64,000 bases of DNA from Bacteroidia bacterium (GCA_030538215.1 JAUNUM010000004.1:1-64000); one strand, 5' to 3'. Numbered from the stretch's first letter, positions 583 through 33,551 are shown. Numbers and translations are program-made. Notes: generated from the letters alone by a model not told the origin.

Positions 583-1116
583 GTGAAATCAAGAAAGGAA
601 ATAGAGGCTATTTACAACGAACATGTAGATAACCTCTATTCCTATGCTTTTGCTTTAGGTTTTAAAAAACACGTTGTTATGGATGCCATTCACGATGTTT
701 TTTACAAACTATGCACCGAAGAGAAACCGCTTGATGACGTTATCTCCATTCGTTCTTATTTAACAAGGTCACTAAAAAACAGACTAATAGACATTTATAA
801 ATCACAGAAAATAAAAATCGACATAACATCACCAAATGCAGAGCTCATCTTAACTCAATCCGAAACCATTGAAGATGAATTAATAACTTCGGAAGATGAA
901 GAAATTATAAAGCAAAAGGTTAACGAAATGCTTCAATCGTTAAGCCCGAGACAACAAGAAATAATTATTCTGCGTTATGTAGAAAATCTTTCCTATGAAG
1001 AAATATCGTTAAAAATGGGCCTCAGCTATTCTTCGTGCAGAAAACTAATGCATAAAGCCATGGAAACCTTACGCCTGAAATATCCGCTTATTATTTTATA
1101 TCTCTTATTGCTCTGA
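583..1116 (+). CDS. ECF-type RNA polymerase sigma factor (SusC/SusD-linked)
   Basis: The 177-residue protein has the two-domain ECF layout: sigma region 2 at about residues 8-75 (YNEHVDNLYSYAFALGF, then MDAIHDVFYKL) and region 4 at about 115-165 (LSPRQQEIIILRYVENLSYEEIS helix-turn-helix). The start is GTG at 583; no ATG precedes it in a sensible place. A hydrophobic tail (PLIILYLLLL) closes the protein. The FecR-like anti-sigma gene follows in the same direction, with SusC after it, the classic Bacteroidota trans-envelope signalling arrangement. It probably directs transcription of the downstream SusCD genes when its FecR partner is signalled. It is paralogous to the sigma factor at 12497. 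Confidence 0.93.
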   Translation: MKSRKEIEAIYNEHVDNLYSYAFALGFKKHVVMDAIHDVFYKLCTEEKPLDDVISIRSYLTRSLKNRLIDIYKSQKIKIDITSPNAELILTQSETIEDELITSEDEEIIKQKVNEMLQSLSPRQQEIIILRYVENLSYEEISLKMGLSYSSCRKLMHKAMETLRLKYPLIILYLLLL

Positions 1117-1255
1117 TTGAATATCCATGTCGAATTGATTCTTACTTTCCCAAAAATGTTAAAAAGTAAAAGTTTTTCTGTTTTTTAGGGAACAAAACAA
1201 AACTTAAGTCGTCTTGAAGAGTAAATCTCTTAATGCCCGAAAAGCGTTTTTGCTT

Positions 1256-2449
1256 ATGACGACCAATAAAGAATTGAACTATAGAAATTATATCGACCTT
1301 TTAAAAGACGAAACTTTCGTGCAGTGGCGCATTGCCCCATCGGAAGAAGTTACCGGCTATTGGGAAAGTATTATCGATAAGAATCCCAGGCTGAAAATAG
1401 AAACACTAAAGGCCGACAACTATTTAAGAAAACATTTTTCTGATGAGAATCAGCTGACAGAGAAAGACAAATCGGAGCTTTTCAACAGCATTGTAACATC
1501 TGTTTCAAAAACGGAGCGGAAAAAATCATTACCATTCAAACTGCTTCCCTATGTGGCGGCAGCATGCGTCATCCTCTTTGTTGCAGGCGGATTGCTTTTA
1601 TACTATAAAAACAACAAACAATACACCGGACTGACTACACTGGTAGAAGGAAGCACACAAACTCCCGAAGACATTCAATTGATTACAGGCAATACTGTTT
1701 CTACTTTTGCACAAGATGTAGAAATAAAAGTAAATAACGAAATGGTGTTCATTAATGAAGGTACTACAAGCGAAAAGAAAATTGACATCAGAGACAATAC
1801 CACGATTAACAAACTAATTGTGCCTTATGGGAAACGCTCATTTATTACACTTTCAGACGGCTCAAAAGTATGGCTCAACTCGGGAACGGAACTCGAATTT
1901 CCATCGAACTTCACAGGTAGCATACGCGAAATAAAAGTTAAAGGCGAAATATTTGCAGAAATAGCCTCCGACAAACAAAAACCATTTTATGTCTACACCC
2001 GCGATTTTAGCGTACAGGTTTATGGAACTAAATTCAACATATCATCTCATCCCGAAGAAAAATCAAGCGTAGTTTTGGTAGAAGGAAGTGTGAAACTAGT
2101 CTCGAGCAACAACAATTTATTTTTAGCGCCTAATGAAATGGGAGAAATAAATGAACAGACAGGTCTCACAAAAAAAACCATAAATCCGCAAGAATATATT
2201 TCGTGGAAAGAAGGCTACCTCACATTAAACAATACACCTATATCTGATGTACTTCAAAAGGTGGGACGAATTTATAATGTAAAATTCGGTTTTGATGAAA
2301 ACCTTCACATTTTGAATATCAAATGCAGTGGAAAATTGGATTTATCGGATAATATCGATGATGTAATGCGCGCTATCGCCGCCATTTCTAACACCAATTA
2401 CATTCGTGACCAAAATACGATCTATATTAATAAATACCTAAAACAATAA
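1256..2449 (+). CDS. FecR family anti-sigma factor
   Basis: A 397-residue inner-membrane anti-sigma regulator. A cytoplasmic N-terminal part (about 1-95) would hold the sigma factor, one membrane helix lies at about 97-117 (LLPYVAAACVILFVAGGLLLYY), and the periplasmic FecR domain follows, with INKLIVPYGKR, LSDGSKVWLNSGTELEFP and a C-terminal DUF4974-like segment (ISDVLQKVGRIYNVKF). I chose ATG 1256; a TTG at 1214 would add 14 residues, but the paralogue at 13288 aligns from the ATG. The STN domain of the SusC product encoded downstream (2573) is the expected signalling partner. Confidence 0.92.
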   Translation: MTTNKELNYRNYIDLLKDETFVQWRIAPSEEVTGYWESIIDKNPRLKIETLKADNYLRKHFSDENQLTEKDKSELFNSIVTSVSKTERKKSLPFKLLPYVAAACVILFVAGGLLLYYKNNKQYTGLTTLVEGSTQTPEDIQLITGNTVSTFAQDVEIKVNNEMVFINEGTTSEKKIDIRDNTTINKLIVPYGKRSFITLSDGSKVWLNSGTELEFPSNFTGSIREIKVKGEIFAEIASDKQKPFYVYTRDFSVQVYGTKFNISSHPEEKSSVVLVEGSVKLVSSNNNLFLAPNEMGEINEQTGLTKKTINPQEYISWKEGYLTLNNTPISDVLQKVGRIYNVKFGFDENLHILNIKCSGKLDLSDNIDDVMRAIAAISNTNYIRDQNTIYINKYLKQ

Positions 2450-2572
2450 AATGCCTATGAAAAACTTTTAATTATTGCATTGAATAAAAATTGAACGACA
2501 ATGAAAATATCGTTCAGTCAAATAAAATCAATTACTATTCTGTATATACCTTAATTAAATTACAACAAAGTT

Positions 2573-5500
2573 ATGGGATATTATCATTGCAAGAAAAAAT
2601 ACGTACTTAATAAATACAAACAAAATCTAAGAATAATGAGACTAAGCATTATCTTACTATTTATCGGATTGGTAAGTATAAAAGCAAATACTTACTCGCA
2701 AAGCATTGTATCTCTCAATGCACACAACAAATCACTGAAGAGCATATTCAGCGATATTGAAGCTAGAACTAATTATATATTTTTGTTAACGGAAGATGTC
2801 GAAAAAGACACGAGCACCAAGATAAATATTATCATCAACGAGGAGTCTATTGAAGATTCAATGAACAAAATACTTAAAAGCACGCAGTTTGATTACAAAA
2901 TAATTAACCGTCAAGTCGTGGTTTACAAGAAAGGAGTTGCTCCTGATATTGTGAAAGCAACAAACAGAGTTACCGAGACACAGCAACAGATAACAAAAAA
3001 CATAAAAGGAAAAGTTATTGATAAGAACACCGGCGAACCACTCCCCGGCGCTTCTGTTATTTCACAAGAAAATGGAAAAACTGTTAACGGTACAGCGACC
3101 AATGAATATGGCAACTTCGAATTAATCATCCATCAAAATGTAACTACATTATCTGTTTCATTTATTGGATACGTTACACAAAACATTATTCTTAAAGACG
3201 ATGACAAGACCATTACCATAAGTCTTGAAGAAGACACTCAATCATTTGATGATGTTGTAGTTACAGGATACTTCCAAAAAAGCAAATCAAGTTTCACGGG
3301 AGCCGTAACACAAGTATCAAAAGAAGAAATTCAAAAATATGGTAAAACAAATATTATCAATATACTGTCGCAAGTAGATCCCACCTTCAAAATAAAAGAA
3401 AACAACGATATGGGATCTAATCCGAATGAACTTCCCAATTTTTTTATTCGCGGGGAAGGCAGTTTCTTAGGCGGCAGCAATATTCCGACTTTCATTGTGG
3501 ACGGCTATGAAGTGTCGCTCCAATACATATTTGATATGGATATCGACAGAATAGAGAGCCTTACCATCTTAAAAGACGCATCGGCAACTATCCACTACGG
3601 ATCACGTGCCGCAAACGGAGTAATCGTTATCGAAACACGGCGTCCCGAAGCAGGAGAACTTCGCGTAAGCTACACCAACAGAAGCAGCCTGTCTGTGCCC
3701 GATCTCACAGACTACAACTTAATGAATGCACGAGAAAAGCTGGAGTTTGAAAAATTAGCAGGCATCTATACCAGTGAAGAGCCAAAAGAACAACACCGGC
3801 TTAATAAAGTTTACAACAGCATTGCATCTGATATTGCTCGCGGTGTAGATACCTATTGGCTTTCACAACCCCTGCGCAACGCTTTTTCACACGGACACTC
3901 ATTGTATGCTTCCGGTGGCGACCAAAAAGTAACATATGGTTTAGGCATAAATTACGACAACAAGGCGGGAGTTATGAAAAAATCGTATCGGGACAATTAC
4001 GGATTAAATTTCGATCTGACATATAGAATCAAAGATAAATTTACCATTAGAAACAGCTTCTCCTACAACAATACAAAATCGGTAAATTCGCCCTACGGTT
4101 CCTTCACAAGATACACCTCGGCAAATCCATACAGTCCTACCAACGTAAAAATATTCGATCAGCACGATACCTACCGACATGTCAACTACCTGCAAGATGC
4201 TCTGCTCGGACACAAAAACGAAGATGTAACGGAAACCGTGACTAACAACCTCTCGTTGGACTACTTCCTTACTCCTAATTTCAGATTGAAATCCTCTCTA
4301 TCCCTGATGAAGAGCAACCTGAACGGATTCAAATTCCATTCTCCTCTATCATCAACCGACGTAGGAATAGAAATCAATAAAAGAGGACAATACGACGAAA
4401 AAAACGGTAAAAAATCATCGTTCGACTTCAGCACAACACTTACCTACACATTGCAAAAAAACAAACACACCTTGTACAGTGGAATAGGAGTGAACCTGCA
4501 AGAGCGAAAAGAGTCGATGAACAGTTACTCGGTAACTGGGTTCTTAGACGAACGCTTCAGCGATATTCGCTTCGCGCAGCAATTTAAAGACGGTACCCGC
4601 CCTTTCTCAACTGACCATATCAGTCGCCTTGCCGGCTTTATGGGAAATGCAAATTACTCTTTCGATAATCGCTACTTCGTTGATTTCTCGGCACGCGCCG
4701 ATGGATCTTCCAAGTATGGAACAAATCAAAAGTTTGGAACATTTTGGTCAGTAGGTGCCGGTTGGAACATTCACAAGGAATCGTTTTTAAAAGATACCAA
4801 ATGGTTGGAAGAGTTCAAGCTTCGCGGATCGTTAGGCGAAACAGGAAACCAGAACTTCGATCCGAAAGTAGCAAAAACCATTTTCGATTATTACGTTACG
4901 GAGTTTTATCATCAAACATTCGGAGCCATATTTTCTCAATTCGGAAACGAAAATCTCAAATGGCAAAAAAGCCTTAAACGAAACATCGGATTGGATTTTT
5001 CATTATTGAAAAGACGATTATCATTTCGCTTTGATTATTACAACGACAAAACATTAGGCTTACTACTACCCGTTACCGTAGCTCCTTCATTGGGATTTTC
5101 CAGCTATACCGAAAACTACGGCGAGCAACTTAATCAAGGATATGAATTCAATATCTCAGGCGTAGTCGTTCGAAACAAAGATTTCGATTTGGCTCTCTAT
5201 GCAAGCGGAACTCACAACAAAAACAAAATCCTGAGAATAACAAACGTGTTGGCAAAACTGAACGAAACAAACAACGCAGATGAAAAACAATTTACCAAAC
5301 CCGTAGCACTCTACGAAGAAGGAGAATCGCTCTCGGCTATTAAAGCAGTTCGCTCAATGGGCATAGATCCCGAAACGGGAAAAGAACTCTATCTGACAAA
5401 AGACGGAAAGATTACCGAAAAGTGGGACTACAAAGACAAAATCAAACTAGGCGACACGGCGCCTGCACTTATGGGAACTTTCGGCACAAATGCAATGTGG

Positions 5501-5911
5501 AAACAGCTCTCCTTGAATCTGAACTTTCGCTACAGCATCGGATCGCAACTATACAACGCAACGCTGGCCGAAAGAGTAGAAGGTGCCGATCCGCGTCTAA
5601 ATGCCGATCGTCGTGTATTGGAAGAACGATGGAAAAAACCGGGCGATCACAGTTTCTATAAAAATATTGCCGACCGGAGTGTCTCATACGCCTCCAGCCG
5701 ATTTGTTCAGAACAACAATTATCTCGAACTGACAAACGTGTCTCTGCAATATCACATAGATCAAGAGTTGCTCAAAAAAATAGGACTTAATTCCCTAAGG
5801 ATAGGAGCCAATATGAACGACGTATTTTATATCTCCACGGTAAAGCGAGAAAGAGGGTTAGAATATCCCTACGCCAGACAGTTTACTTTTACACTAAATC
5901 TTAAATTTTAG
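2573..5911 (+). CDS. SusC/RagA-type TonB-dependent transporter with STN domain
   Basis: A 1112-residue outer-membrane receptor. A Sec signal ends near NTYSQ (residue 43). An STN signalling domain spans about 45-117, a carboxypeptidase-regulatory-like domain about 143-219 (PLPGASVISQENGKT), a TonB-box-like DDVVVTGYF 226-234, then the plug (GSRAANGVIVIETRRP) and a 22-strand-type barrel ending in FTLNLKF. STN domains signal to FecR proteins, matching the upstream anti-sigma gene. SusD starts 6 bp after the stop. The N-terminal extension before the signal peptide (Met1 to Met22) is long; translation could start at the later ATG (residue 22). The substrate cannot be read from the sequence; no glycosidase genes are nearby. 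Confidence 0.95.
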   Translation: MGYYHCKKKYVLNKYKQNLRIMRLSIILLFIGLVSIKANTYSQSIVSLNAHNKSLKSIFSDIEARTNYIFLLTEDVEKDTSTKINIIINEESIEDSMNKILKSTQFDYKIINRQVVVYKKGVAPDIVKATNRVTETQQQITKNIKGKVIDKNTGEPLPGASVISQENGKTVNGTATNEYGNFELIIHQNVTTLSVSFIGYVTQNIILKDDDKTITISLEEDTQSFDDVVVTGYFQKSKSSFTGAVTQVSKEEIQKYGKTNIINILSQVDPTFKIKENNDMGSNPNELPNFFIRGEGSFLGGSNIPTFIVDGYEVSLQYIFDMDIDRIESLTILKDASATIHYGSRAANGVIVIETRRPEAGELRVSYTNRSSLSVPDLTDYNLMNAREKLEFEKLAGIYTSEEPKEQHRLNKVYNSIASDIARGVDTYWLSQPLRNAFSHGHSLYASGGDQKVTYGLGINYDNKAGVMKKSYRDNYGLNFDLTYRIKDKFTIRNSFSYNNTKSVNSPYGSFTRYTSANPYSPTNVKIFDQHDTYRHVNYLQDALLGHKNEDVTETVTNNLSLDYFLTPNFRLKSSLSLMKSNLNGFKFHSPLSSTDVGIEINKRGQYDEKNGKKSSFDFSTTLTYTLQKNKHTLYSGIGVNLQERKESMNSYSVTGFLDERFSDIRFAQQFKDGTRPFSTDHISRLAGFMGNANYSFDNRYFVDFSARADGSSKYGTNQKFGTFWSVGAGWNIHKESFLKDTKWLEEFKLRGSLGETGNQNFDPKVAKTIFDYYVTEFYHQTFGAIFSQFGNENLKWQKSLKRNIGLDFSLLKRRLSFRFDYYNDKTLGLLLPVTVAPSLGFSSYTENYGEQLNQGYEFNISGVVVRNKDFDLALYASGTHNKNKILRITNVLAKLNETNNADEKQFTKPVALYEEGESLSAIKAVRSMGIDPETGKELYLTKDGKITEKWDYKDKIKLGDTAPALMGTFGTNAMWKQLSLNLNFRYSIGSQLYNATLAERVEGADPRLNADRRVLEERWKKPGDHSFYKNIADRSVSYASSRFVQNNNYLELTNVSLQYHIDQELLKKIGLNSLRIGANMNDVFYISTVKRERGLEYPYARQFTFTLNLKF

Positions 5912-5917
5912 AGCATT

Positions 5918-7372
5918 ATGAAGAATCTGATTATAATTATATCGTTACTCCTCACACTGAGTTTTGCGGCTTGCAACGATTGGCTCGAGGTAAAACCAAC
6001 GGGAAGCATTGTGGATGATGAGCTTTTTAAAAACGAATTTGGCTATAAACAAGTTCTTACAGGAGCATACGTATCTATGGCAAAACCTCAACTTTACGGA
6101 CAGGAACTGCTCGTGGCAATACCCGACGCGATGGCACAATATTGGAAAATGGATTTAAAAACCAATGCCTACTACTATGTTTCCAAATACGATTTCGCAG
6201 CAGAAACAACCGAAAAACAATTGAAATCAATCTGGGGCAATATGTATCAAACAATTGCCAATCTAAATATCCTGTTAAATCGCTTAGAGATAACACCCGA
6301 GAAGGATTTAATTGATTACAAACTGATAAAAGGCGAAGCATTGGCATTGAGAGCATATTTACATTTAGACTTGTTACGACTTTTTGGCCCCGTACTAAAA
6401 AACGGAGGAATGAAAGAACTTTCAATTCCTTATCGCACCACATATAACAACAAAATAATGAAGAGAATGACGGCGGATGTCGTATTGAAAGCAATAGAAG
6501 ATGACCTGCTGGAAGCCTACAACTTATTAAAGGAAGACCCTATCATTAAAAACGGACGAAAAACTACTGGAAACAATATAGACACCGAAGCTATGTCATA
6601 TAGATACAGGGGTATTCGTATGAACTACTATGCTGTAGCTGCAACCTTAGCCAGAGTGGAAATGCTGAAAGAGAATAGCGATGAAGCATACAAATATGCC
6701 AAAGAGGTAATTGATGCTAACAACATTTTTCAATTATTAATGCGAGCTGATATTATAAAAGACGATGGAGAACGCAACTTGATGTTTGAACGCGAAATAA
6801 TTTTCGGACTTTACAAAGCAACTCTGAAAGAAACATTAGGTAATTTCTTAGGTTATTCAGACAATTATCGATCCAAACTATCGGTAAGAGAAGATTTTCT
6901 AAACAAAGTATATATCGAGGAAGGGAAAGGCAATCCCCAAGACTACAGAAGAGCATTCTTATGGAAAATGAAAGAAAATGAAATGTTGCTGTATAAATAC
7001 TTCAGGAATCAGAAAGACGAGTTCTTAACCCCTTACGACCCTCTTTTACCAATGATTCGCCTATCGGAAATGTATTATATTGCAGCCGAAGCAAAAATCG
7101 GTAAAGATAATGCAGAAGCAATCGATTTATTAAACAAAGTAAGGATTTCACGAAACCTCACAGCTTTAGACGGCACACAAATGAATGAAACCGAACTCCA
7201 AAATCATATAATAGCAGAATGCCGTAAAGAATTTTGGGGAGAAGGACAAATGTTTTATGTTTACAAACGGCTTTTCAAAGATATTCTAACACACCACGAA
7301 GCGATAAAGGCAGACAAACGAATATTTGAACTGCCTATACCCAAAGAAGAATATGAATTTGGAAGCAACTAA
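5918..7372 (+). CDS. SusD/RagB-type surface lipoprotein
   Basis: A 484-residue lipoprotein with signal peptide and lipobox Cys19 (LSFAACNDW). The SusD layout is visible: the N-terminal WLEVKPTGSIVDDELF segment, helical TPR-like repeats (GEALALRAYLHLDLLRLFGP) and a C-terminal IRLSEMYYIAAEAKIG segment with LLNKVRISRNL. SusD proteins cap the SusC barrel and hand over substrate. It lies 6 bp after SusC and 9 bp before the DUF4843 gene, so all are probably one transcript. Confidence 0.95.
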   Translation: MKNLIIIISLLLTLSFAACNDWLEVKPTGSIVDDELFKNEFGYKQVLTGAYVSMAKPQLYGQELLVAIPDAMAQYWKMDLKTNAYYYVSKYDFAAETTEKQLKSIWGNMYQTIANLNILLNRLEITPEKDLIDYKLIKGEALALRAYLHLDLLRLFGPVLKNGGMKELSIPYRTTYNNKIMKRMTADVVLKAIEDDLLEAYNLLKEDPIIKNGRKTTGNNIDTEAMSYRYRGIRMNYYAVAATLARVEMLKENSDEAYKYAKEVIDANNIFQLLMRADIIKDDGERNLMFEREIIFGLYKATLKETLGNFLGYSDNYRSKLSVREDFLNKVYIEEGKGNPQDYRRAFLWKMKENEMLLYKYFRNQKDEFLTPYDPLLPMIRLSEMYYIAAEAKIGKDNAEAIDLLNKVRISRNLTALDGTQMNETELQNHIIAECRKEFWGEGQMFYVYKRLFKDILTHHEAIKADKRIFELPIPKEEYEFGSN

Positions 7373-7381
7373 ATAAAGAAT

Positions 7382-8152
7382 ATGGATATGAAAAAAAGAA
7401 AAATTCACTTCGTTATATTATCACTGTTTGCCCTATTAATGGCTTGTGACAAAGGTGAAAACTTAATGTACAAAGATTTCTCCGGCTTACATTTCGTAGC
7501 GCCAACCGATACAACACTCATATTGCGTCGCGATACCTTGATTTACTCCTTCGCTTTTGAGAAACCGGAAATAAAAGAAAAGATTATCTACATCCCTGTA
7601 GAAATTGAAGGATTCAGAGAGAACAAAGATCGAAAATTTAATGTGCAATTGATAAAAGAAGGAACAACGGCCGAATCAGGTGTACATTACGAAGCATTGC
7701 AAGAGTATTATACCGTAAAAGCTAATCAGGGAAGAGATTCTATTGCTTTAAAAGTGAAGAGAACGCTTGATATTCGCAATACGGCAAAAACCATTACGCT
7801 GAAACTCGTGCCAACGGATGAGTTTGAAGTAGGCTTATACGATAAGCAACAAGTGAGCATCTCCTTCTCCGATATTCTCGAAGAACCTGATTGGTGGGAA
7901 AACTGGAAATATCTGTTTGGAGAATACCACCGAATAAAGTATCAGGAATGGATAAAAATAAAAGGAGGAAAAGGAGAACTGCCGAACAAAGAGATTAAAC
8001 GATGGCAATTCTTGCAAAATTATCCAACAGAATGTATGCTGATAATGCAACTACGCCTCTATTTTGAAAAGAACCCAAGATATACATTGGAAGAATTAGC
8101 CGATCCGAATAATAAAGGAGAACGCATTATAGTTCCTTGTCCGATTTTATAA
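7382..8152 (+). CDS. DUF4843 family lipoprotein
   Basis: A 256-residue lipoprotein with lipobox Cys22 (FALLMACDKG). The body resembles DUF4843 proteins, which regularly follow SusC/SusD genes in Bacteroidota: a short beta domain starting YKDFSGLHFVAP, a Calx-beta-like middle (GTTAESGVHYEAL) and a C-terminal WWENWKYLFGEYHRIKYQEW segment. It is probably a surface-exposed accessory of the SusCD complex, with unknown ligand. The gene overlaps no neighbour if the next gene starts at 8176. The family call comes from recalled patterns, not from a search. Confidence 0.8.
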   Translation: MDMKKRKIHFVILSLFALLMACDKGENLMYKDFSGLHFVAPTDTTLILRRDTLIYSFAFEKPEIKEKIIYIPVEIEGFRENKDRKFNVQLIKEGTTAESGVHYEALQEYYTVKANQGRDSIALKVKRTLDIRNTAKTITLKLVPTDEFEVGLYDKQQVSISFSDILEEPDWWENWKYLFGEYHRIKYQEWIKIKGGKGELPNKEIKRWQFLQNYPTECMLIMQLRLYFEKNPRYTLEELADPNNKGERIIVPCPIL

Positions 8153-11797: not shown

Positions 11798-12286
11798 ATG
11801 AATCTAAAAAGTATAATTACGTGTGTATTATTAGCTTTCGCTATATTTCAAGCTTCGGCACAACAAAATGTAGTAAATTGGAAGTTCAGTCTGCAAGACA
11901 AAGGTAACGGCGAAATTGAATTGGTTGCCGATGCCCGTATTCAAGCAGGATGGCATTTATATGACACAAATATTCCTAAAAACACTGCATTTCCAACAAC
12001 TCTAAGTATAACAAAAATCGCAGGTGTCAAAATCATAGGGCAGTTCAAAGCCACACAAAAACCTCACATATCGTTCGATCCTGTTTTTAATGCGGAAATT
12101 GGAACATTCGAGAAATCGGCAAAATTTGTACAACGATTTAAAATAACCGATAAAGCAAAATTTATACTTGAGGGCGATGTACGCGCTCAGGCTTGTGACG
12201 ATGAAACTTGTACACCTCCTCTACCCAACCATTTTACCTTTAAAGCATCGGATTTGGCTACAATCAAATCCTCAAAAAGCAAATAG
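11798..12286 (+). CDS. Stand-alone DsbD N-terminal (alpha) domain protein
   Basis: A 162-residue periplasmic protein with signal peptide (AFAIFQASAQQ) and a single DsbD alpha-like domain. It keeps GWHLYDT, SFDPVF, GDVRAQACDDETCTPPLP with the paired cysteines (QACDDETC). It closely matches the N-terminal domain of the full DsbD at 31512 (most positions identical by eye, for example NVVNWKFSLQDKGNGEIELV) but has no membrane or thioredoxin part. Synonymous sites differ, so the duplication is old and the protein conserved. DsbD alpha normally passes electrons to periplasmic partners. The neighbouring tandem thioredoxin protein is a possible partner. Confidence 0.85.
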   Translation: MNLKSIITCVLLAFAIFQASAQQNVVNWKFSLQDKGNGEIELVADARIQAGWHLYDTNIPKNTAFPTTLSITKIAGVKIIGQFKATQKPHISFDPVFNAEIGTFEKSAKFVQRFKITDKAKFILEGDVRAQACDDETCTPPLPNHFTFKASDLATIKSSKSK

Positions 12287-14481: not shown

Positions 14482-14558
14482 TCGTACAATATCTATATTG
14501 AGAGAGTATTGAAAGATTTTTCAAAAAATTTATAAATTAATCTATAAACCTCACCCGT

Positions 14559-18098: not shown

Positions 18099-18110
18099 AA
18101 TCTCAACAAA

Positions 18111-20847: not shown

Positions 20848-20856
20848 ATAATAAAA

Positions 20857-22020: not shown

Positions 22021-22026
22021 TAAACA

Positions 22027-23190: not shown

Positions 23191-23222
23191 TCAATAAAAA
23201 AACTGAGAGCGTAAACCTTGCC

Positions 23223-23264
23223 AATAAGTAGGAGTATGACATAGTCTACATACTCCTACTTATT
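23223..23264. repeat. Perfect 16-bp inverted repeat (hairpin)
   Basis: Left arm AATAAGTAGGAGTATG at 23223-23238 and its exact complement at 23249-23264, with a 10-base loop. It lies 33 bp after the third TlpA-like gene. No T-run follows on the + strand (AGAAAAAAT), so it is not a classic intrinsic terminator; it may still stabilise the 3' end of the transcript or stop transcription. Confidence 0.75.
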
Positions 23265-23586
23265 AGAAAAAATCCAGTGCAGAGCATGCAGTGAAATACT
23301 TTTCGAATATTCTTCTTAAAAAAGAGATCGTTTCGCAAAGTGTAAATAATCACTTGCTCATCTATTTAAAGTTTTCAAACGTGCAACACGATTTATCCCG
23401 ATTTCTATCGGACATAATACGTATTTCACTGACTTTCTAAATTTAATATATTATTTTTTTACAACAATTAACGAATAAGTACATCGTCATTCCCAATAGT
23501 TTATACTACTTAGTTAAGTAACAAAACGGACACTGCGGCTTAAACCCCGTGAGCCCTATTTCTAACTGAACCGAACTAAGATAAAT

Positions 23587-23594
23587 TATTTTTG
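23587..23594 (+). promoter_or_regulatory. -7 promoter box of the third SusCD unit
   Basis: TATTTTTG matches TAnnTTTG and ends 50 bp before the ATG at 23645. A clear -33 TTTG is not seen at the usual distance. Confidence 0.45.
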
Positions 23595-23644
23595 AAAACG
23601 TACTTAGATTTTACAAATTGTTACACATTTTAAACTAATTGCTT

Positions 23645-26600: not shown

Positions 26601-26842
26601 ACAACTCTTTCTTCAGGATAAAAAACGTATCACTAAGTTATGACGTAAACCCAGACAAGTTGGAAAAACTAGGAATTCTGGGCTTGCAATTCAACCTGAA
26701 CTTTACTAACTTGCTTACTTTTACCCGTTGGCCGGGATTAGATCCCGATATTTCCAGCAATTTTGCTTCCGGAATGTCTTCAAATACAGATCCGTATCCA
26801 TCAAGCAGAACAATGTCGATGGGAGTAAGAGTCAATTTTTAG
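23645..26842 (+). CDS. SusC/RagA-type TonB-dependent transporter without STN domain
   Basis: A 1065-residue receptor starting at ATG 23645 (an upstream TTG at 23639 adds two residues). Signal peptide to about residue 20, carboxypeptidase-regulatory-like domain about 34-107 (KPLPGVYVFIENTSIY), TonB-box-like MLDDVVVIGYG 112-122, plug with GSRGANGVILVKTKSG and barrel ending SMGVRVNF. Unlike the other two SusC proteins there is no STN domain, and no sigma/FecR pair stands upstream. It must be regulated differently, from the promoter region in the long upstream spacer. Confidence 0.95.
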   Translation: MKFLLLVLALTLSIGNMQADNATSAIQQDGKQVEFRGTVLDTHKKPLPGVYVFIENTSIYTTTDNEGKFLLNLPADIEMVVTFYFLGCEHEYHVFEGKPANVTITMKDDATMLDDVVVIGYGSKDRKSLSSSIASLDKHQLGVLSPVSNSLDNMLAGTVKGVLIRPSSGQPGAIPVINVRGITSPIPKINGSQLSNTPLFVIDGVPIYLQETSLNPLLAISPNDIESIDVLKDAAATAIYGSRGANGVILVKTKSGRKTENLEIQAGYIFSVGNPIKQYKVLNRAEFMDLQDEVLRNTVSAVNNGTSYSSIDVLSNYGLVEEDPVTQKLVYKGLNLSKYGNADTDWVRAIQNRNAPTHQYNMSVRGGTQYSTYSFSFNGINQEGLFIKDKFERYGVRFSLDFDLWERLKMGTILNYGYASRNSGEQMEGFSEDRSWNVRPDLPIYTETGALQRIPDYTYGGKDEKPNPVALFEKTSKFKNHQIFGNFYINYQLLKGLSWYTDFNMSYNRFDNSYFTPLDALTLSPAYPMKATLDISDHSSFNSSINTRLDYTLAINNHNFTAMAGLGSDRVFNQSKSNMLWGFPNDKYLQNPSSAGVLINMTDTDTSEGLNSVYSRFTYNFAHRYLAEVSWRADQSSKFGPGNRWGTFPALSVAWRINNENFMRHTTKVDDLKLRFSTGKTGSTNIPDFSYRQYIQSGGVHNTYGEDLTLVLRNTLPNKNIRWEMTTEYNAGIDLSLFNHRLYGSFDLYYRYTDGALAPAPNKLETGISVYYANIIDMSNRGFELQLGGDIIRNKNFTWNSEINLSSNRNRIEKLNDAILDDLSDGFIVGQPTGVMRGYVVEKIVQTQEEINVLNQKAEEKGRSAYQNLATGPGDYLYKDLDGNGYIDEFDRKVITNPEPKLFGGWTNTFQYKNFSLSILSQFSYGGKAIWESLLTNIGQPLGTNIIRQVYKNTWTPENTGANYPRLVNAPESWLNSAINDRAVFDNSFFRIKNVSLSYDVNPDKLEKLGILGLQFNLNFTNLLTFTRWPGLDPDISSNFASGMSSNTDPYPSSRTMSMGVRVNF

Positions 26843-26865
26843 TTTAACTTATAAATAAAAAGACA

Positions 26866-28323
26866 ATGAGAACAATTTACAAATATACAGTTATAATATG
26901 CTGTAGCATAACTCTCTGGGGATGTGATCTGATAGGAAGCATAGACGATATCAAGCAAAAAAATGTTCTGACCGATGAAACACAAATACCCGACAAAGCT
27001 TCTGCTCAATTTGCATTGAATGGCGTGTACGCGAGTTGGAGGACAACGGGAATAGGATGGTTCGTGAGCTATCTTACTACATTAACTCAAGCGCAATTAC
27101 CACCCAATTTGAACGGAATCGACGGATTTTCCACCAACGAAGTAACGATAGACAACCCTGGCATAAGAAATAATTACATCGACTTGTATAACATTATCAA
27201 TAATGCCAATACGCTTTTAACAAACCTGGAAAAAGCAACTATTCCCGATATTACGCAAGAAGAAAAGGACATAATTATGGCACAAGCCCGTTTTCACAGG
27301 GCCTGCGCACATTTTCACCTGCTGCGCCAGTACGGAGAGTTTTTTGACATGAATTCTATTTACGGCATCGTGATTTGCGATAAACCCGAAAGGGACAATA
27401 CGCCGCAAAAACGCGCCACAGTAGAAGAAAGCTACAAATTCATCATCGCTGATTTGGAGTATGCCATTGAAAAATGTTCCAATGACTACGTGGAGCATTA
27501 TCACGTGAGCAGCACCACGGCAAAAGCGCTTTTGGCAAAAGTATATCTGTCGAAAGCCGATTTTACCAATGCGGCAAAATTTGCTATAGAAGTGATAGAT
27601 GAAGCTTCTGCTGCCGGATACGAGCTGGAAAGATATTATTATTTGGATATTTTTTATAATAGTTTCAATTCTTCCGAAGTGTTGTTTGCCCCACATATTA
27701 TTCAGATAACCAATCTGGGAATGATGGAGTACCACACAATACAATTGGGGTCGACCCTTGTACGCATCGCCGACGAATTGGTTCCGGGTGAGGGTGATTT
27801 CGAAACCGGAGCAGGATTCGATCCTCGCTTCTTTATGACCTATCCAAAAGAAACATTTGCCGAAGGAGAATCTTTACAATTAATAGAAAAATATCCTATG
27901 CTAGACTACATGGCCGGAAAACCTGAGCACACTTATTTTATGCTCCGCCTCGGCGAAATCTACCTGATTGCCGCCGAAGCTGAATTTAGGCGTGAAGGAG
28001 GCGATAAAACAAAAGCAAGATCATACCTGCAAACTATTTGCACTCGCGCATCTGATTATCCGGTATCATACAATAGAAACTATGCACGCAATATTCCCGA
28101 AAGCGATTTTTTGGTTACCCTGCTCAAACACAAATATATTGAGATTAGCCACGAAAACGGAGAAGAATGGTACGACTTGGTACGCTACAAAATAGTGGAC
28201 AAAATGGAAATAGCACCCGATTATGTAGCTTCAGACCGACACTTAGTATTCCCCATCCCTCAAACGGCAAGAGCAGGAAATCCACTGTTAGAGCAAAATC
28301 CAGGGTATCCGGGTGCCAAATAA
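26866..28323 (+). CDS. SusD/RagB-type surface lipoprotein, third
   Basis: A 485-residue lipoprotein (lipobox Cys20, TLWGCDLIG). SusD features: KASAQFALNGVYASWR, QARFHRACAHFHLLRQYGEF, RATVEESYKFIIADLEYAIE, LLAKVYLSKADFTNAAKFA and the C-terminal LRLGEIYLIAAEAEFRREGG with HENGEEWYDLVRY. It lies 23 bp after SusC. A terminator hairpin follows, so the M16 peptidase genes are a separate or read-through unit. Confidence 0.95.
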   Translation: MRTIYKYTVIICCSITLWGCDLIGSIDDIKQKNVLTDETQIPDKASAQFALNGVYASWRTTGIGWFVSYLTTLTQAQLPPNLNGIDGFSTNEVTIDNPGIRNNYIDLYNIINNANTLLTNLEKATIPDITQEEKDIIMAQARFHRACAHFHLLRQYGEFFDMNSIYGIVICDKPERDNTPQKRATVEESYKFIIADLEYAIEKCSNDYVEHYHVSSTTAKALLAKVYLSKADFTNAAKFAIEVIDEASAAGYELERYYYLDIFYNSFNSSEVLFAPHIIQITNLGMMEYHTIQLGSTLVRIADELVPGEGDFETGAGFDPRFFMTYPKETFAEGESLQLIEKYPMLDYMAGKPEHTYFMLRLGEIYLIAAEAEFRREGGDKTKARSYLQTICTRASDYPVSYNRNYARNIPESDFLVTLLKHKYIEISHENGEEWYDLVRYKIVDKMEIAPDYVASDRHLVFPIPQTARAGNPLLEQNPGYPGAK

Positions 28324-28349
28324 GAATTTATGAAAAATTCATGTTGAAA

Positions 28350-28398
28350 AACACAATGCACTCAGTACTTTTTAAAAGTGCCGTGCATTGTGTTTTCA
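28350..28398 (+). terminator. Terminator hairpin after the third SusD
   Basis: Inverted repeat AACACAATGCAC (28350-28361) / GTGCATTGTGTT (28383-28394), with further pairing possible inside the loop and a short TTTT at the 3' side. It lies 26 bp past the SusD stop. Confidence 0.7.
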
Positions 28399-28471
28399 CA
28401 ACAAATCGGAGCAAAAAATAAAACATTGCCTGAAAAAATTAAAAACAATTTCTTAAAATTCACACCAACAT

Positions 28472-29827
28472 ATGAGTAAACGATTCAAAATAATTTTGAG
28501 CCCCATTCCTCTGCTGGCGCTAGCACTACTTATACTACCAACGCACAGCATGGCAACAAACAAAAACGACACTCCAGTCACACTGAATATTGCTTTCGAA
28601 GAGTATGATCTCCAAAACGGATTACACGTTATACTCCATCAAGACAACACCGTGCCGGTGGTAGTAACATCGGTGATGTATCACGTGGGATCAAAAAACG
28701 AAACTCCCGATAGAACAGGATTCGCGCACTTCTTCGAACACCTGCTTTTCGAAGGCACCAAAAACATTAAACGTGGCGAGTGGGACAAAATTGTGGACGA
28801 AAATGGAGGCATGAGTAATGCCAACACCAGCAACGACCGCACATATTATTACCTCGTTTTCCCGTCGAACAATCTGGAGCTATCGCTCTGGATGGAAGCC
28901 GACAGGATGCGTAACGCCGTTATTGACCAAGTGGGAGTAGATACGCAACGCGAAGTCATCAAAGAAGAAAAAAGATACAACATAGATAATATGCCATACG
29001 GAAATATGTTTACCGCATTGCAAAAAAACCTCTTTACTAAACACCCCTACAACTGGAGCACCATTGGCTCTATGGAGCACTTAGACAAAGCAAAATTATC
29101 TGATTTCAAAGAATTTTACAAGAAATTCTACGTGCCCAACAACGCGACACTGGTTATTGCCGGAAACATAAATCCATCGCAAACAAAAGAATGGGTAAAC
29201 AAATACTTTGGAAGTATTCCTGCCGGGAAACCCGTTGTACAACCAAACATTCAAGAAGAGCCCATTACCACCGCAGCAGAATACGAAGCCACAGACCGCA
29301 ATATAGAACTGCCGGCATACATGTTTGCATACAGAATACCGTCGGAAAACGAAAAAGAACTCTACACACTCGATATGATTGCATCTCATCTTGGAAGCGG
29401 AAAATCGAATGTACTTTACAAAAAATTAATAAATACAGGAAACGCGCTTGAATTTGCAGTAATGAACGAAAGACTTGAAGATTACAGTATCTTTCTTTAT
29501 TATGCATTGCCTATGGGCGAAGGTTCAAAAGAAAGCGTAGAAAAAGCTTTTGATGACGAAATTCGCCAACTTCAAAACAACCTAATCTCCGAAAAAGAGT
29601 ATCAAAAGCTTCAAAATCAAATCGAAATGAACTTTATAAACTCCATTTCGTCTATGGAAAAAATTGCGGAGTCGTTGGCCACTTACCGGGTATTGTACGG
29701 CAATACCAATCTCATCAACGAAGTGGTAAAAAAATATCAATCCGTCACGCGCGAAGATATACAGGCGGCAGCACAAAAACACCTCAACCCCAATCAACGA
29801 ATCACAATCAAATATTTACCCCGATAA
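28472..29827 (+). CDS. M16 family zinc peptidase, catalytic subunit
   Basis: A 451-residue exported peptidase (signal sequence LLALALLILPTHSMA). The inverted zinc motif HXXEH is intact: His86-Phe-Phe-Glu89-His90 in FAHFFEHLLFEG, with a downstream acidic third-ligand region (REVIKEEKRYNID). The C-terminal M16 domain (residues about 215-440) lacks the motif, as expected. M16B enzymes of this length work as heterodimers with a second, inactive subunit, which is the next gene (1 bp apart). It probably degrades peptides in the periplasm after uptake through the neighbouring SusCD system; that link is inferred from position. Confidence 0.9.
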   Translation: MSKRFKIILSPIPLLALALLILPTHSMATNKNDTPVTLNIAFEEYDLQNGLHVILHQDNTVPVVVTSVMYHVGSKNETPDRTGFAHFFEHLLFEGTKNIKRGEWDKIVDENGGMSNANTSNDRTYYYLVFPSNNLELSLWMEADRMRNAVIDQVGVDTQREVIKEEKRYNIDNMPYGNMFTALQKNLFTKHPYNWSTIGSMEHLDKAKLSDFKEFYKKFYVPNNATLVIAGNINPSQTKEWVNKYFGSIPAGKPVVQPNIQEEPITTAAEYEATDRNIELPAYMFAYRIPSENEKELYTLDMIASHLGSGKSNVLYKKLINTGNALEFAVMNERLEDYSIFLYYALPMGEGSKESVEKAFDDEIRQLQNNLISEKEYQKLQNQIEMNFINSISSMEKIAESLATYRVLYGNTNLINEVVKKYQSVTREDIQAAAQKHLNPNQRITIKYLPR

Positions 29828-29828
29828 A

Positions 29829-31244
29829 ATGAAAAAAGCAGTTCAATATATCATTCTTCTTGCATTTGTTCTCACAGCCGGATATAGTTGCACACAAAAA
29901 AAAGGCAACACTCAAATGCCGAAATCGGGCGAAACACCTGCCATTAACTTGGAGTCGCCCAAAACATTTAAACTGGACAATGGATTAACCGTGTTAGTGG
30001 TAGAAAATCACAGATTACCTCGTGTAAACATGATGCTTATTATAGATTTTGCTCCAAAAGCCGAAGGGGATAAAGCCGGAACAAGTTCTCTGCTTACTCG
30101 AATGCTCGGAACAGGAACAACAAGCTTAAACAAAGAGAGTTTCAACGAAAAAATAGATTTCTTGGGAGCTACTTTATCGTTTAATGAAAATGGAGCATCG
30201 GCAAGTGGATTATCGAAATTCTTTCCGGAAATATTAGAGCTAATGAGCAGTGCCATCTTGCACCCCAAATTCAATCAAAACGAGTTTGAGATAGCAAGAG
30301 AGATGAAGATAGAAGAAATTAGCAACCTCGAAAAAGATGTCTCCAACATAACCACACGAGTTTTCAAAGCCCTTACTTTTGGTGCAAACACAGCATACGG
30401 AGAATCCGAAACAGAACAGACATTGCGTAATATTAATTTAAAAGATATTGAAACTACACATAAAGAGATATTTGTTCCCAACAACGCATACCTATCCATC
30501 GTGGGCGACATAACTCTTGAAGAAGTAAAGCCGCTGATTGAGAAAAACTTTGCAAATTGGAAAAGAGGAGAAGATAATCCGGTTTCTGTTCCCCAACCCG
30601 ACAATCTTGAAGAGGTTGAAATAAATATTGTAGATGTTCCCAGCGCTGTTCAGGCAAACATAGTTATCGGCAATGTGCATCAGATAAAGGCAAACAGTCC
30701 CATTTTCTTTGCATCCTCGTTATCTAACGAAATTTTAGGTGGCTCCTCTTTAAATACGAGGCTTAATAGCAATTTACGTGAAAAAAACGGATATACATAC
30801 GGCGCAAGTTCACAAATAGACTACGATAAATATAATCCATCCTTTTCCGCTCAAGCAAGCGTAAGTAATAAACTGGTACCGCAAGCCATAAAAGAATTTA
30901 TGGTTGAATTTAACAATATATCAACCATAACAGAAGAAGATTTGCGAATAACAAAAGCCCGAATGAAAGGAAACTTCACGTTATCGATGGAAAACCCAAG
31001 TACAATTGCAGGAATGGGACTAAATATATTAACAGAAGGCTTGCCGGAAGATTTTTATGTAAACTATCTGAAATCGATAGATAACTTAACCGTCAACGAT
31101 GCACAAAGCGCAGTAAAAGAATATCTTAAAATCAACAATTTAAGAATAGTAGTGGTGGGAAAGGCCGCCGAATTCGAAAAATCATTAAAAGAGTTGTCCT
31201 ACCCTATTCGGTATTATGATACAAAGGGAAATCGGGTGCGATAA
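29829..31244 (+). CDS. M16 family peptidase-like subunit lacking the zinc motif
   Basis: A 471-residue lipoprotein (lipobox Cys21, TAGYSCTQKK) with M16 fold. At the position of HXXEH it reads GTSSLLTRMLGTGT, so zinc binding is lost. The C-terminal half keeps GGSSLNTRLNSNLREKNGYTYGASS, the Arg/Tyr substrate-binding segment typical of the partner subunit. The pairing with the catalytic gene directly upstream matches the known alpha/beta organisation of bacterial M16B peptidases. The lipid anchor would tether the heterodimer to a membrane. Confidence 0.9.
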   Translation: MKKAVQYIILLAFVLTAGYSCTQKKGNTQMPKSGETPAINLESPKTFKLDNGLTVLVVENHRLPRVNMMLIIDFAPKAEGDKAGTSSLLTRMLGTGTTSLNKESFNEKIDFLGATLSFNENGASASGLSKFFPEILELMSSAILHPKFNQNEFEIAREMKIEEISNLEKDVSNITTRVFKALTFGANTAYGESETEQTLRNINLKDIETTHKEIFVPNNAYLSIVGDITLEEVKPLIEKNFANWKRGEDNPVSVPQPDNLEEVEINIVDVPSAVQANIVIGNVHQIKANSPIFFASSLSNEILGGSSLNTRLNSNLREKNGYTYGASSQIDYDKYNPSFSAQASVSNKLVPQAIKEFMVEFNNISTITEEDLRITKARMKGNFTLSMENPSTIAGMGLNILTEGLPEDFYVNYLKSIDNLTVNDAQSAVKEYLKINNLRIVVVGKAAEFEKSLKELSYPIRYYDTKGNRVR

Positions 31245-31257
31245 ACGGAGCAAATTA

Positions 31258-31293
31258 AGAAACTGTTTTATACACAGATTCAAAACAGTTTCT
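31258..31293. repeat. Dispersed palindrome, arms AGAAACTGTTTT
   Basis: Perfect 12-bp arms at 31258-31269 and 31282-31293. The reverse complement of this element matches the one at 44170-44202, including GAATC next to the left arm. It lies 13 bp after the M16 pair and may act on transcript ends, but its reuse elsewhere shows it is a repeat family. Confidence 0.75.
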
Positions 31294-31346
31294 AAGATAC
31301 ATACCCTAAACTATAATGAAAAACCATACACTCTACTTTTTTCAAG

Positions 31347-31377
31347 AACAGTAATATCTTCGGATATTACTGTTTTT
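31347..31377 (+). terminator. Intrinsic terminator with TTCG tetraloop
   Basis: Stem AACAGTAATATC (31347-31358) / GATATTACTGTT (31363-31374) closed by a TTCG loop with C-G closing pair, the very stable tetraloop, followed by TTTTT. It ends transcription from the M16 gene pair before the DsbD promoter. Confidence 0.9.
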
Positions 31378-31473
31378 ATCACTCATTAAAATAGTTCAAA
31401 AAACAAACCTTTAAATATAATTAACAAAATGGAGAAAAGATATATGATTGCGGAATTAAATCCAACATTTTAT

Positions 31474-31481
31474 TATCTTTG
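31474..31481 (+). promoter_or_regulatory. -7 promoter box of the DsbD gene
   Basis: TATCTTTG matches TAnnTTTG exactly, with a TTG at 31448-31450 as a possible -33 element. It lies 30 bp before the ATG at 31512 and downstream of a strong terminator, so DsbD has its own transcript. Confidence 0.6.
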
Positions 31482-31511
31482 TACCCTCAAATAAGAAAAA
31501 TCCACAATATT

Positions 31512-33551
31512 ATGAACGTCAGAAGAATTACTTTTTTATTCATCCTTTTTTCTTTATCGTCATACATTTTTTCGCAAAATGTTGTCAACTGGAAATTTAG
31601 CCTACAAGATAAAGGAAACGGTGAAATAGAGCTAGTTGCCGATGCAACCATTCAAGAGGGATGGCATTTATATGACACAGATATCCCCAAAAATACAGCC
31701 AATCCTACCACTTTGAGTTTTGACAAAATTACCGGTGCAGAACCTGTAGGTAAATTTCACGCAGCGCAAAAAGCGCATGTTTCGTTCGATCCCGTGTTTA
31801 AGGCAGAAATAGGAACATTTGAGCGTACAGCAAGATTTATACAACGACTAAAAGTAACCGATAAAGCAAAATTTGTGCTCGAAGGCGACGTGCGCGCGCA
31901 AGCCTGTGACGATAAAACCTGCACACCACCATTACCCAACGATTTCGCATTTAAATCATCTGACTTACCGGCAACACTTACCGTAGTTGCATCAGCTGCA
32001 AAAGATGCTGAAACAGAAGAAATAGCTCCTACTGAAACTGTGCAGCCAATTGCTTCGGAGCAAACTGATAATGCCACCACAGTTGTAACAACTCCCTCCA
32101 ATACGCCCATTAATAAAAATGTTCTTTGGACACCTGTTATCGAAGAGCTTAAGGAGTTTGGGATGAAAGGAAGTGTGGCCGGAAAATCTCTTTTCTGGAT
32201 ACTTATTTCCGGATTCATCGGTGGGCTTATTGCACTGGTAACACCTTGTGTTTGGCCTTTAATCCCGATGACCGTGAGTTTCTTCCTAAAACGAAACAAA
32301 ACCGAAAAGAAAAAAGCAATATCGGAAGCCATTATATACGGATTTTCCATCATTGTTATATACGTAACATTAGGACTGCTTATCACAGCCATTTTTGGCG
32401 CAAGTGCACTAAATGATCTATCTACCAGTGCAGTTTTCAATCTTATTTTCTGCGGATTGCTCATTTTATTCGCGATTTCTTTTTTCGGCGCGTTCGACTT
32501 AGTACTACCCGCATCATGGACAAATAAAATGGATGAAAAAGCCGACAAAACAAGTGGATTGCTTAGTATCTTTTTCATGGCATTTACCTTGGCTTTGGTA
32601 TCCTTTTCATGTACCGGACCTATTATTGGCACATTATTAGTAGAAACCGCCACATCAGGCAGCTTCTTAGCTCCCGCAATCGGCATGTTTGGTTTTGCAT
32701 TGGCATTAGCTATTCCATTTGCTCTGTTTGCCATATTCCCATCGTGGCTTCAAAGTATGCCCAAATCTGGCGGATGGCTCAATTCGGTAAAAGTAGTGTT
32801 GGGTTTCTTAGAACTTGCTTTAGCCCTCAAATTCCTCTCTGTTGCCGATTTGGCTTACGGATGGAGAATTTTAGATAGAGAAGTATTCCTTGTGTTGTGG
32901 ATTGTTATCTTTGCATTATTAGGATTGTACCTATTGGGCAAACTAAAACTTCCACACGATAGTGACCTCAAACACGTATCGGTTACCCGACTGTTTTTAT
33001 CCATTATATCTTTCGCCTTTGCGTTGTATATGGTTCCGGGATTGTGGGGCGCACCATTAAAATCCATTAGCGCTTTCTCGCCACCTATTTTCACGCAAGA
33101 TTTCAATTTGTACGACGGTTCGGTGCATGCAAAATTTGATGATTACGAATCGGCAATGGCGTACGCTAAACAAAATAATAAACCTGTTATGATTGACTTC
33201 TCGGGATACGGATGCGTAAACTGTCGCAAGATGGAAGCATCGGTATGGACGGATGCCCGTGTAAAAAGTATTCTCGAAAACGATTACGTGTTAGTTACAT
33301 TAATGGTGGACGATAAAAGCAGACTTCCCGAAATCATTGAAGTAGATGAGAATGATAGAACCACAAAGCTGAAAACCATCGGTGATAAATGGAGCTACTT
33401 GCAACGATATAAGTTTGGAGCAAACGCGCAACCATACTACATCGCCCTCGATACGGATGGAAAACCCATAGCTCCATCATACGCGTATGACGAAGATGTG
33501 GAAAAATACATTCAATTCCTCGAAACAGGATTACAGAATTTCAAGAAATAA
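31512..33551 (+). CDS. dsbD: Protein-disulfide reductase DsbD, full length
   Basis: A 679-residue inner-membrane protein with three parts. The N-terminal alpha domain (about 20-150) contains QACDDKTCTPPLP, a low-complexity linker follows, the membrane domain (about 215-510) has TPCVWPLIPMTVSFFLKR and SCTGPIIGTLLVE with the two transmembrane cysteines, and the C-terminal thioredoxin domain has GCVNC (Cys568/Cys571). DsbD carries electrons from cytoplasmic thioredoxin to periplasmic thiol reductases. Start ATG 31512; an upstream TTG lies on the promoter box. It would be the electron source for the five or more thioredoxin-type domains encoded in this block (inference). Confidence 0.93.
   Translation: MNVRRITFLFILFSLSSYIFSQNVVNWKFSLQDKGNGEIELVADATIQEGWHLYDTDIPKNTANPTTLSFDKITGAEPVGKFHAAQKAHVSFDPVFKAEIGTFERTARFIQRLKVTDKAKFVLEGDVRAQACDDKTCTPPLPNDFAFKSSDLPATLTVVASAAKDAETEEIAPTETVQPIASEQTDNATTVVTTPSNTPINKNVLWTPVIEELKEFGMKGSVAGKSLFWILISGFIGGLIALVTPCVWPLIPMTVSFFLKRNKTEKKKAISEAIIYGFSIIVIYVTLGLLITAIFGASALNDLSTSAVFNLIFCGLLILFAISFFGAFDLVLPASWTNKMDEKADKTSGLLSIFFMAFTLALVSFSCTGPIIGTLLVETATSGSFLAPAIGMFGFALALAIPFALFAIFPSWLQSMPKSGGWLNSVKVVLGFLELALALKFLSVADLAYGWRILDREVFLVLWIVIFALLGLYLLGKLKLPHDSDLKHVSVTRLFLSIISFAFALYMVPGLWGAPLKSISAFSPPIFTQDFNLYDGSVHAKFDDYESAMAYAKQNNKPVMIDFSGYGCVNCRKMEASVWTDARVKSILENDYVLVTLMVDDKSRLPEIIEVDENDRTTKLKTIGDKWSYLQRYKFGANAQPYYIALDTDGKPIAPSYAYDEDVEKYIQFLETGLQNFKK

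Follow-up and report, generated by a model that had tools for sequence, protein, structure and literature searches.

Three SusCD units in front of a resident dsbD-mazG pair

We analysed a stretch of 64,000 nucleotides from Bacteroidia bacterium (GCA_030538215.1 JAUNUM010000004.1:1-64000; hereafter the window), in which a block of three SusC/SusD (SusCD) pairs lies, together with thioredoxin-fold proteins and an M16 peptidase pair, upstream of dsbD. Genes were called from a list of open reading frames and from Pfam and NCBIfam scans of the window proteins, and all genes of the block and its flanks lie on the + strand. Every gene named in an earlier note on this DNA was recovered at the positions given there. 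That inventory had missed two pairs of genes for an extracytoplasmic function (ECF)-type sigma factor and a FecR-like anti-sigma factor, the genes for the DUF4843 and PKD_2-beta-propeller lipoproteins, and mazG.

Unit 1 begins with the ECF-type sigma factor gene sig1 (583-1116; Pfam Sigma70_r4_2/r2) and the anti-sigma factor gene fecR1 (1214-2449; FecR, FecR_C). These are followed by the TonB-dependent SusC1 (2573-5911; TIGR04056, 2.9e-193; Plug above cut-off) and the lipoprotein SusD1 (5918-7372; SusD-like_3, SusD_RagB). Two further lipoproteins come next, a DUF4843 protein with a modelled Calx-beta-like sandwich (7382-8152; PF16132, 4.2e-35) and a PKD_2 protein with a modelled C-terminal beta-propeller (8176-9630; PF16407, 9.9e-25). 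The unit closes with a secreted double thioredoxin (9639-11759; PF00085 in two stretches, CGPC at residues 52 and 397) and a stand-alone N-terminal domain of DsbD (nDsbD) with its cysteine pair (11798-12286; PF11412, 6.3e-8, above cut-off). In unit 2, sig2 (12497-13078) and fecR2 (13288-14481), both from the Pfam scan, precede SusC2 (14559-18098; TIGR04056, 1.1e-176), SusD2 (18111-19616; Pfam SusD family) and three DUF4369-TlpA lipoproteins with CGPC motifs: TlpA1 (19675-20847; AhpC-TSA, DUF4369), TlpA2 (20857-22020; AhpC-TSA/TlpA, 59% identical to TlpA1) and TlpA3 (22027-23190; AhpC-TSA/TlpA). Unit 3 consists of SusC3 (23645-26842; TIGR04056, 9.1e-230; Plug), SusD3 (26866-28323; Pfam SusD family) and the two subunits of an M16 peptidase, M16a (28472-29827) and M16b (29829-31244). 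All three pairs thus have a SusC/RagA barrel above the TIGR04056 cut-off followed by a SusD/RagB-family lipoprotein.

From SusC to the end of the unit, the genes of units 1 and 2 are only 6-58 bp apart. Larger gaps precede the second sigma gene (210 bp), SusC3 (454 bp), M16a (148 bp) and dsbD (267 bp), and because of them we distinguish separate units: the block consists of three transcription-like units that precede a resident housekeeping dsbD-mazG pair. The earlier note had treated it as a single 33-kb system. This is not borne out, since the spacing, the two sigma/FecR sets and the arrangement in a congener (G047), where unit 1 is missing, rule out one integrated system. SusC1 and SusC2 each lie downstream of a sigma/FecR pair; SusC2 carries an STN signalling domain above the Pfam cut-off, and the STN match of SusC1 is weak (24.3 bits, under the cut-off of 28.4). 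Pfam detected no STN domain in SusC3, and no sigma/FecR pair precedes it. Units 1 and 2 would be induced through SusC-STN/FecR/sigma signalling. A promoter and terminator scan of 20001-34000 gave a signal no higher than in shuffles, and no Rfam RNA family was found within 1-36000.

The redox motifs are intact throughout. CGPC is kept in all five thioredoxin-like domains, two of them in the double thioredoxin and one in each TlpA protein; the TlpA lipoproteins have the thioredoxin fold with CxxC of TlpA/ResA-like proteins and may act as reductants in vivo. The full DsbD (31512-33551; DsbD_N PF11412, DsbD_TM PF02683, Thioredoxin_7 PF13899) has its N-terminal, transmembrane and C-terminal thioredoxin domains and all three cysteine pairs (Cys 132/137, 246/367 and 568/571), and the lone nDsbD retains the paired cysteines of PF11412 in the motif ACDDETC. 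M16a has no cysteine at all, and the only one in M16b is in a lipobox-like position. SusD1-3, DUF4843 and PKD_2 have predicted lipoprotein signals in which an acidic residue closely follows the cysteine, a pattern known from surface lipoproteins. The predicted lipoprotein signals of the TlpA proteins and M16b lack this residue, and the double thioredoxin, lone nDsbD and M16a are predicted to be soluble and secreted. Judged by these signal peptides, capture would take place outside, and reduction and cleavage inside.

Among solved structures, M16a is closest to 5euf, 4nnz and 3amj_C, which is the active subunit of 3amj, and its scores against FusC/PqqL chains are far lower. M16b, a putative lipoprotein, best matches the inactive subunit of the same zinc peptidase (3amj_B, 1.9e-28). 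HxxEH is present in M16a (as HFFEH) and absent from M16b. Since both match subunits of 3amj, the pair is a heterosubunit M16B peptidase of two ~50 kDa subunits, not a single-chain ~100 kDa enzyme of the FusC/PqqL type. It differs from 3amj in the lipoprotein-like signal of the inactive subunit and in its place beside SusCD, 148 bp after SusD3, an arrangement kept in G047.

Of the 101 family genomes, 95 encode a full DsbD, and MazG (33648-34430 in the window) follows it in nearly every family locus examined. On its left, the block is flanked by a gene fragment for the C-terminal portion of an ACR3 arsenite exporter (34-522; NCBIfam TIGR00832 acr3, 3.4e-54), and in another congener, G049, a match to the ACR3 end stands directly upstream of dsbD-mazG. 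Because dsbD-mazG is family-wide and the ACR3 end abuts dsbD in G049, we conclude that dsbD was resident and that the 31-kb block arrived upstream of it. The full DsbD counted earlier as part of the system is therefore there, but it is the family's housekeeping copy, and we reject it as a member of the acquired block. Units 2 and 3 also stand before dsbD-mazG in G047 (identity to the window: SusC3 84%, SusD3 83%, M16a 76%), with a different, arginine decarboxylase-like gene (by eye) at the other flank. This is the only congener found to have the exact gene set, minus unit 1. Among the 101 family genomes, SusD3 was found at E<1e-30 only in the window's own genome and G047, and searches with TlpA2 and SusD3 found hardly any close homologues; the exact genes are thus local, though the architecture is not. 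At least three independent SusCD-TlpA insertions have occurred at the resident dsbD: in the window's genome and G047, in G059 and in G060.

Recurrence of the SusCD-TlpA-M16-DsbD partnership

We observed that TlpA and DsbD accompany the same few SusCD pairs. Two genomes of the family, G005 and G042, hold 57 and 50 SusD genes (107 in total), of which only two and one, respectively, have a TlpA/AhpC-TSA gene within 6 kb downstream on the same strand. The same three are also the only ones then followed by an extra DsbD (L126, L127 and L091), that is, 3/3 TlpA-linked SusD genes versus 0/104 others (p = 5e-6). Over the family, every extra DsbD copy outside dsbD-mazG stands behind SusCD-TlpA (5/5), compared to 4/32 resident sites, these four going back to the three independent insertions listed above. 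The corresponding p = 2.9e-4 is optimistic, because L127, L128 and L129 seem to be orthologues of a single locus, each from a different species, and the five cases amount to about three independent ones.

Similar arrangements occur in more distant genomes. The neighbour loci were picked by similarity, not at random, and one locus sample was ranked by SusCD-linked DsbD, so that frequencies in that sample are biased. Neighbour genes were labelled with hidden Markov models built from the window proteins, with a Pfam check on a subset, and "Flavobacteriaceae-like" is our guess for one group (f7), made from size and gene content. In Flavobacteriaceae-like genomes, we found SusCD-TlpA-TlpA-M16-DsbD (L122), SusCD-TlpA-alpha/beta hydrolase-DsbD-M16 (L186), SusCD-M16-nDsbD-DsbD (L150), TlpA-M16-DsbD (L145) and SusCD-TlpA-prolyl oligopeptidase-M16 (L181; L187 and L188 look alike). 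The longest version, SusCD-DUF4843-PKD_2-thioredoxin-aspartyl protease-TlpA-M16-DsbD (L182), is matched by the visible part of L138. A Flammeovirgaceae metagenome-assembled genome (MAG; UBA1842) carries sigma-FecR-SusC-SusD-thioredoxin-DsbD-M16 (L049). In these loci the M16 is a single chain of ~930 residues instead of the window's split pair, and the same roles therefore recur with different parts. Complete or partial versions of the sigma-FecR-SusCD-DUF4843-PKD_2-thioredoxin order of unit 1 were found in Butyricimonas, Odoribacter, Sphingobacterium humi and Bacteroides reticulotermitis, as well as in Prevotellaceae and Dysgonomonadaceae MAGs.

Conservation beyond this genome, on which the earlier note had staked its reading, takes the form of non-orthologous versions, found within the family, among Flavobacteriaceae-like genomes and in the Flammeovirgaceae MAG. 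The gene-neighbourhood comparison thus recovered the partnership, and the exact set, minus unit 1, only in G047. These data support the view that SusCD, TlpA/thioredoxin, M16 and DsbD form a recurrent partnership and no one-off.

The M16 pair has a different background. Homologues of M16a were detected, at the cut-offs used, in 268 of 392 genomes of the phylum versus 11 of 101 family genomes, and none of 23 fetched neighbourhoods of such pairs elsewhere had an adjacent SusD. This indicates that a common stand-alone peptidase joined a SusCD unit here. The pair reported earlier is present, but it is one copy of a heterosubunit peptidase that is widespread and mostly stands alone.

Several related loci were seen alongside. 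Retropepsin-like aspartyl proteases (PF13650) are encoded in DUF4843-PKD_2-TlpA-DsbD loci of different families (L126, 11160-12419; L138, 3449-4921), and are another peptidase class occupying the same place. The window's own genome has a second sigma-FecR-SusCD-DUF4843-PKD_2 locus (L198; C124:8001-26000), which additionally encodes an 844-aa protein and a TlpA protein.

Stand-alone nDsbD and mobility of unit 1

The lone domain that the earlier note had described at 11798 as a stand-alone DsbD alpha domain is there, and it is a partial paralogue of the window's full DsbD. It shares 71% identity with the N-domain of that protein and is its sister in a 64-row tree (support 100/98), on a branch of length 0.58 versus 0.05 for the DsbD N-domain. 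Since the nonsynonymous distance between the two is 0.145 while synonymous change is saturated, the lone nDsbD has been kept under purifying selection. This, together with counterparts elsewhere, rules out a dead fragment. A stand-alone nDsbD was also found right before DsbD in L136 (M16-nDsbD-DsbD-TlpA), in L150 and in L149. In L150 the lone copy and the neighbouring DsbD are sisters (97/90), which shows that such genes arose more than once. In L149 (8832-11811), the nDsbD gene directly precedes that for an 832-aa DsbD, outside any SusCD locus. A DsbD_N-like match in L030 was rejected as a stand-alone gene, being the C-terminal domain of a 595-aa protein.

The comparison with G047 bears on how unit 1 came to its place. 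The G047 block has one sigma and one FecR gene. Its sigma factor resembles that of unit 1 (80% versus 43% identity to that of unit 2), and its FecR (L088, 3128-4321) is an apparent mosaic of the two window FecR proteins. The N-terminal 150 alignment columns are like FecR1 (55-80% versus 20-50%), and the C-terminal 240 are like FecR2 (68-90% versus 30-77%). The alignment of window and G047 DNA is interrupted at this point too (window 522-1998 and 13692-18782). From the two genomes compared, unit 1 appears to have been either inserted in the window or lost in G047, in either case by recombination between two FecR genes. The mosaic implies a 12-kb SusCD unit that may move by recombination inside anti-sigma genes, and such events would re-pair sigma factors with sensors.

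Cargo, proposed mechanism and relation to known systems

We propose that the block, inserted upstream of dsbD-mazG, is one member of a class of "redox-coupled" SusCD loci that recurs in Bacteroidota. We infer a cargo, an electron direction and an order of steps from the usual activities of the TlpA, DsbD and M16 families. The SusD lid, with the DUF4843 and PKD/propeller lipoproteins, would capture a disulfide-containing peptide or protein fragment, which SusC would import with TonB energy. TlpA/thioredoxin proteins would then reduce its disulfides in the periplasm with electrons that DsbD delivers from the cytoplasm, unit 1 adding an extra copy of the DsbD periplasmic shuttle domain, and the M16 heterodimer would finally cleave the unfolded chain. 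We assign this redox-coupled import of disulfide-containing (poly)peptides a probability of about one half. More tentatively, and at slightly less than even odds, we extend it to a so far undescribed class spanning the phylum, in which SusCD transport is tied to its own electron supply: DsbD, or an nDsbD shuttle copied from it repeatedly, would drive the reduction of imported disulfide-bonded polypeptides by TlpA/thioredoxin before M16 and other peptidases act. Of the redox-linked acquisition system put forward in the earlier note, the recurrent partnership thus stands and the single 33-kb system does not.

Several observations weigh against peptide import. Nothing in sequence or fold points to a peptide cargo: SusC1 matches glycan and peptide importers in the Protein Data Bank (PDB) alike, and its match to RagA (5.6e-66) does not say peptide, because the levan importer Bt1763 matches equally well. 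The accessory lipoproteins resemble, in their models, surface proteins of other systems, including B12-binding ones. Further, the window's full DsbD is a housekeeping copy whose nearness to SusCD could be incidental, 28 of 32 resident dsbD sites having no SusCD, and the M16 pair, here 148 bp from SusD3, is elsewhere usually stand-alone. Units 1 (thioredoxin and nDsbD), 2 (TlpA) and 3 (M16) also need not share a substrate.

DUF4843 and PKD_2 had no PDB sequence match. Both were modelled with AlphaFold (14-row alignments; pLDDT 74 and 72). The DUF4843 model matched Calx-beta (Z 12.7) and the first domain of several Bacteroides surface proteins (Z 11.4), and its fold also occurs in proteins with a carbohydrate-binding annotation. 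For the predicted C-terminal propeller of PKD_2, the best match was 8bmx_D (Z 24.6; root-mean-square deviation 3.2; 293 aligned), the BtuG-type, B12-binding lipoprotein of a B. theta B12 transporter complex. The model thus has the beta-propeller fold of BtuG-type proteins, but ~11% identity does not imply cobalamin binding, and many unrelated propellers also match at Z 19-21. Both predicted folds fit a capture role without naming the ligand. A relation of unit 1 to Bt2261-64 was considered and dropped: there was no PDB sequence match, and the fold matches did not list these proteins, an absence that is not evidence.

Four other explanations were weighed against redox-coupled peptide import. 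In the Fus systems, or protease-associated import systems (PAIS; FusA-FusC, YddB-PqqL), a TonB-dependent transporter is joined to a periplasmic M16 peptidase (PMC6793856, PMC6071955). The block may likewise take a folded protein, for instance a metalloprotein such as an iron-sulfur protein, for its cofactor, with M16 pulling it in and degrading it, and thioredoxin/DsbD reducing disulfides or metal thiolates to free the cofactor. An M16 beside a TonB-dependent importer is the Fus/PAIS signature (PMC6793856), and Bacteroidota loci of the order SusCD-ABC ATPase-ABC2 permease-M16 resemble Fus with its ABC partner. Such piracy is nonetheless unlikely, given that the block has no metal-uptake gene, that we saw no iron-responsive regulator, and that the M16 here is a split M16B pair far closer to 5euf, 4nnz and 3amj than to FusC/PqqL. 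Equally improbable is a role in envelope maintenance, in which TlpA, thioredoxin and DsbD keep the cysteines of surface proteins reduced or aid folding, SusCD proteins are abundant clients and M16 serves quality control. DsbD is indeed housekeeping in the family and M16 pairs are widespread and usually stand-alone, but a general client relation would not lead one to expect that, in G005 and G042, only 3/107 SusCD loci carry TlpA and that exactly those have DsbD.

Since SusCD pairs are known chiefly for importing glycans, the block could also be an ordinary glycan or glycopeptide uptake locus without local enzymes, its redox and peptidase genes being bystanders at the dsbD insertion site. The modelled DUF4843 fold and a NAGLU glycosidase near the related locus L181 are in line with this. 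As the earlier note had stated, however, the accessory genes are not glycan enzymes: the Pfam scan of genes 583-33551 gave no carbohydrate-active enzyme (CAZyme), at least one of which defines a polysaccharide utilization locus (PUL), and no glycoside hydrolase or lyase domain was found in 583-31244. The same non-glycan partners moreover recur in separate branches of the phylum, and we consider a glycan locus rather improbable. Least likely is protection instead of nutrition, with disulfide-containing antimicrobial peptides (defensins, bacteriocins) imported, reduced and cleaved by M16. The same anatomy would be expected, and M16 enzymes are generally known to degrade small peptides, but the Pfam scan of the block revealed no further gene for resistance or export, and similar architectures occur in Flavobacteriaceae-like and Flammeovirgaceae genomes.

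In working, the nearest known systems to redox-coupled import are Fus/PAIS, with an importer genetically tied to M16, and import followed by proteolysis. Those are defined on FusA/YddB transporters of Proteobacteria and have an M16 of the single-chain FusC type; the window has SusCD of the SusC/RagA family TIGR04056 in place of FusA/YddB-family transporters, its M16B peptidase is split into two subunits, and a thioredoxin/DsbD arm is added. Thioredoxin, TlpA, DsbD, disulfide and Bacteroidetes are all absent from the text of the PAIS paper (PMC6793856). RagAB of Porphyromonas gingivalis and Bt2261-64 are SusCD complexes holding oligopeptides (PMC7782687) and share the SusC/SusD pair, but we came across no report that links TlpA, DsbD or M16 to them. 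PULs under ECF-sigma/FecR control share the sigma-FecR-SusC(STN)-SusD order and differ in that the window block has no CAZyme. The reducing pathway of the DsbD/CcdA-TlpA type classically serves cytochrome c maturation or DsbC/DsbG. All its required redox motifs are present in the window TlpA, thioredoxin and DsbD proteins, which are linked instead to nutrient importers and an extra stand-alone nDsbD. In agreement with the earlier note, which knew of no system of this composition, we found no description of SusCD with TlpA, DsbD and M16 in the open-licence literature. A SusCD-reductase partnership that arose repeatedly across Bacteroidota thus seems undescribed so far.

SusCD loci are taken almost by reflex for glycan loci, and many pairs have no nearby CAZyme or known cargo. 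A subclass with reductases, DsbD and peptidases offers a testable cargo hypothesis for part of this set. If true, redox-coupled import would extend the Fus idea of import and proteolysis to Bacteroidota, and its redox step could explain how disulfide-locked chains become digestible. That a free nDsbD has arisen repeatedly provides a clean experimental handle, in the form of a 160-residue gene next to an intact DsbD.

The SusCD-ABC-M16 loci with an M16 of ~937 aa (L189, confirmed by Pfam; L185, L190 and L191 look alike) are a possible Bacteroidota counterpart of Fus with its ABC transporter. The window's own genome has an ABC2 permease gene, two similar genes, the first MutS-like by Pfam, and a ~900-residue M16 at a contig end (L176; C42:1-7884). 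Further along the window lies a tmRNA gene (43463-43864; tag GNNNNYALAA).

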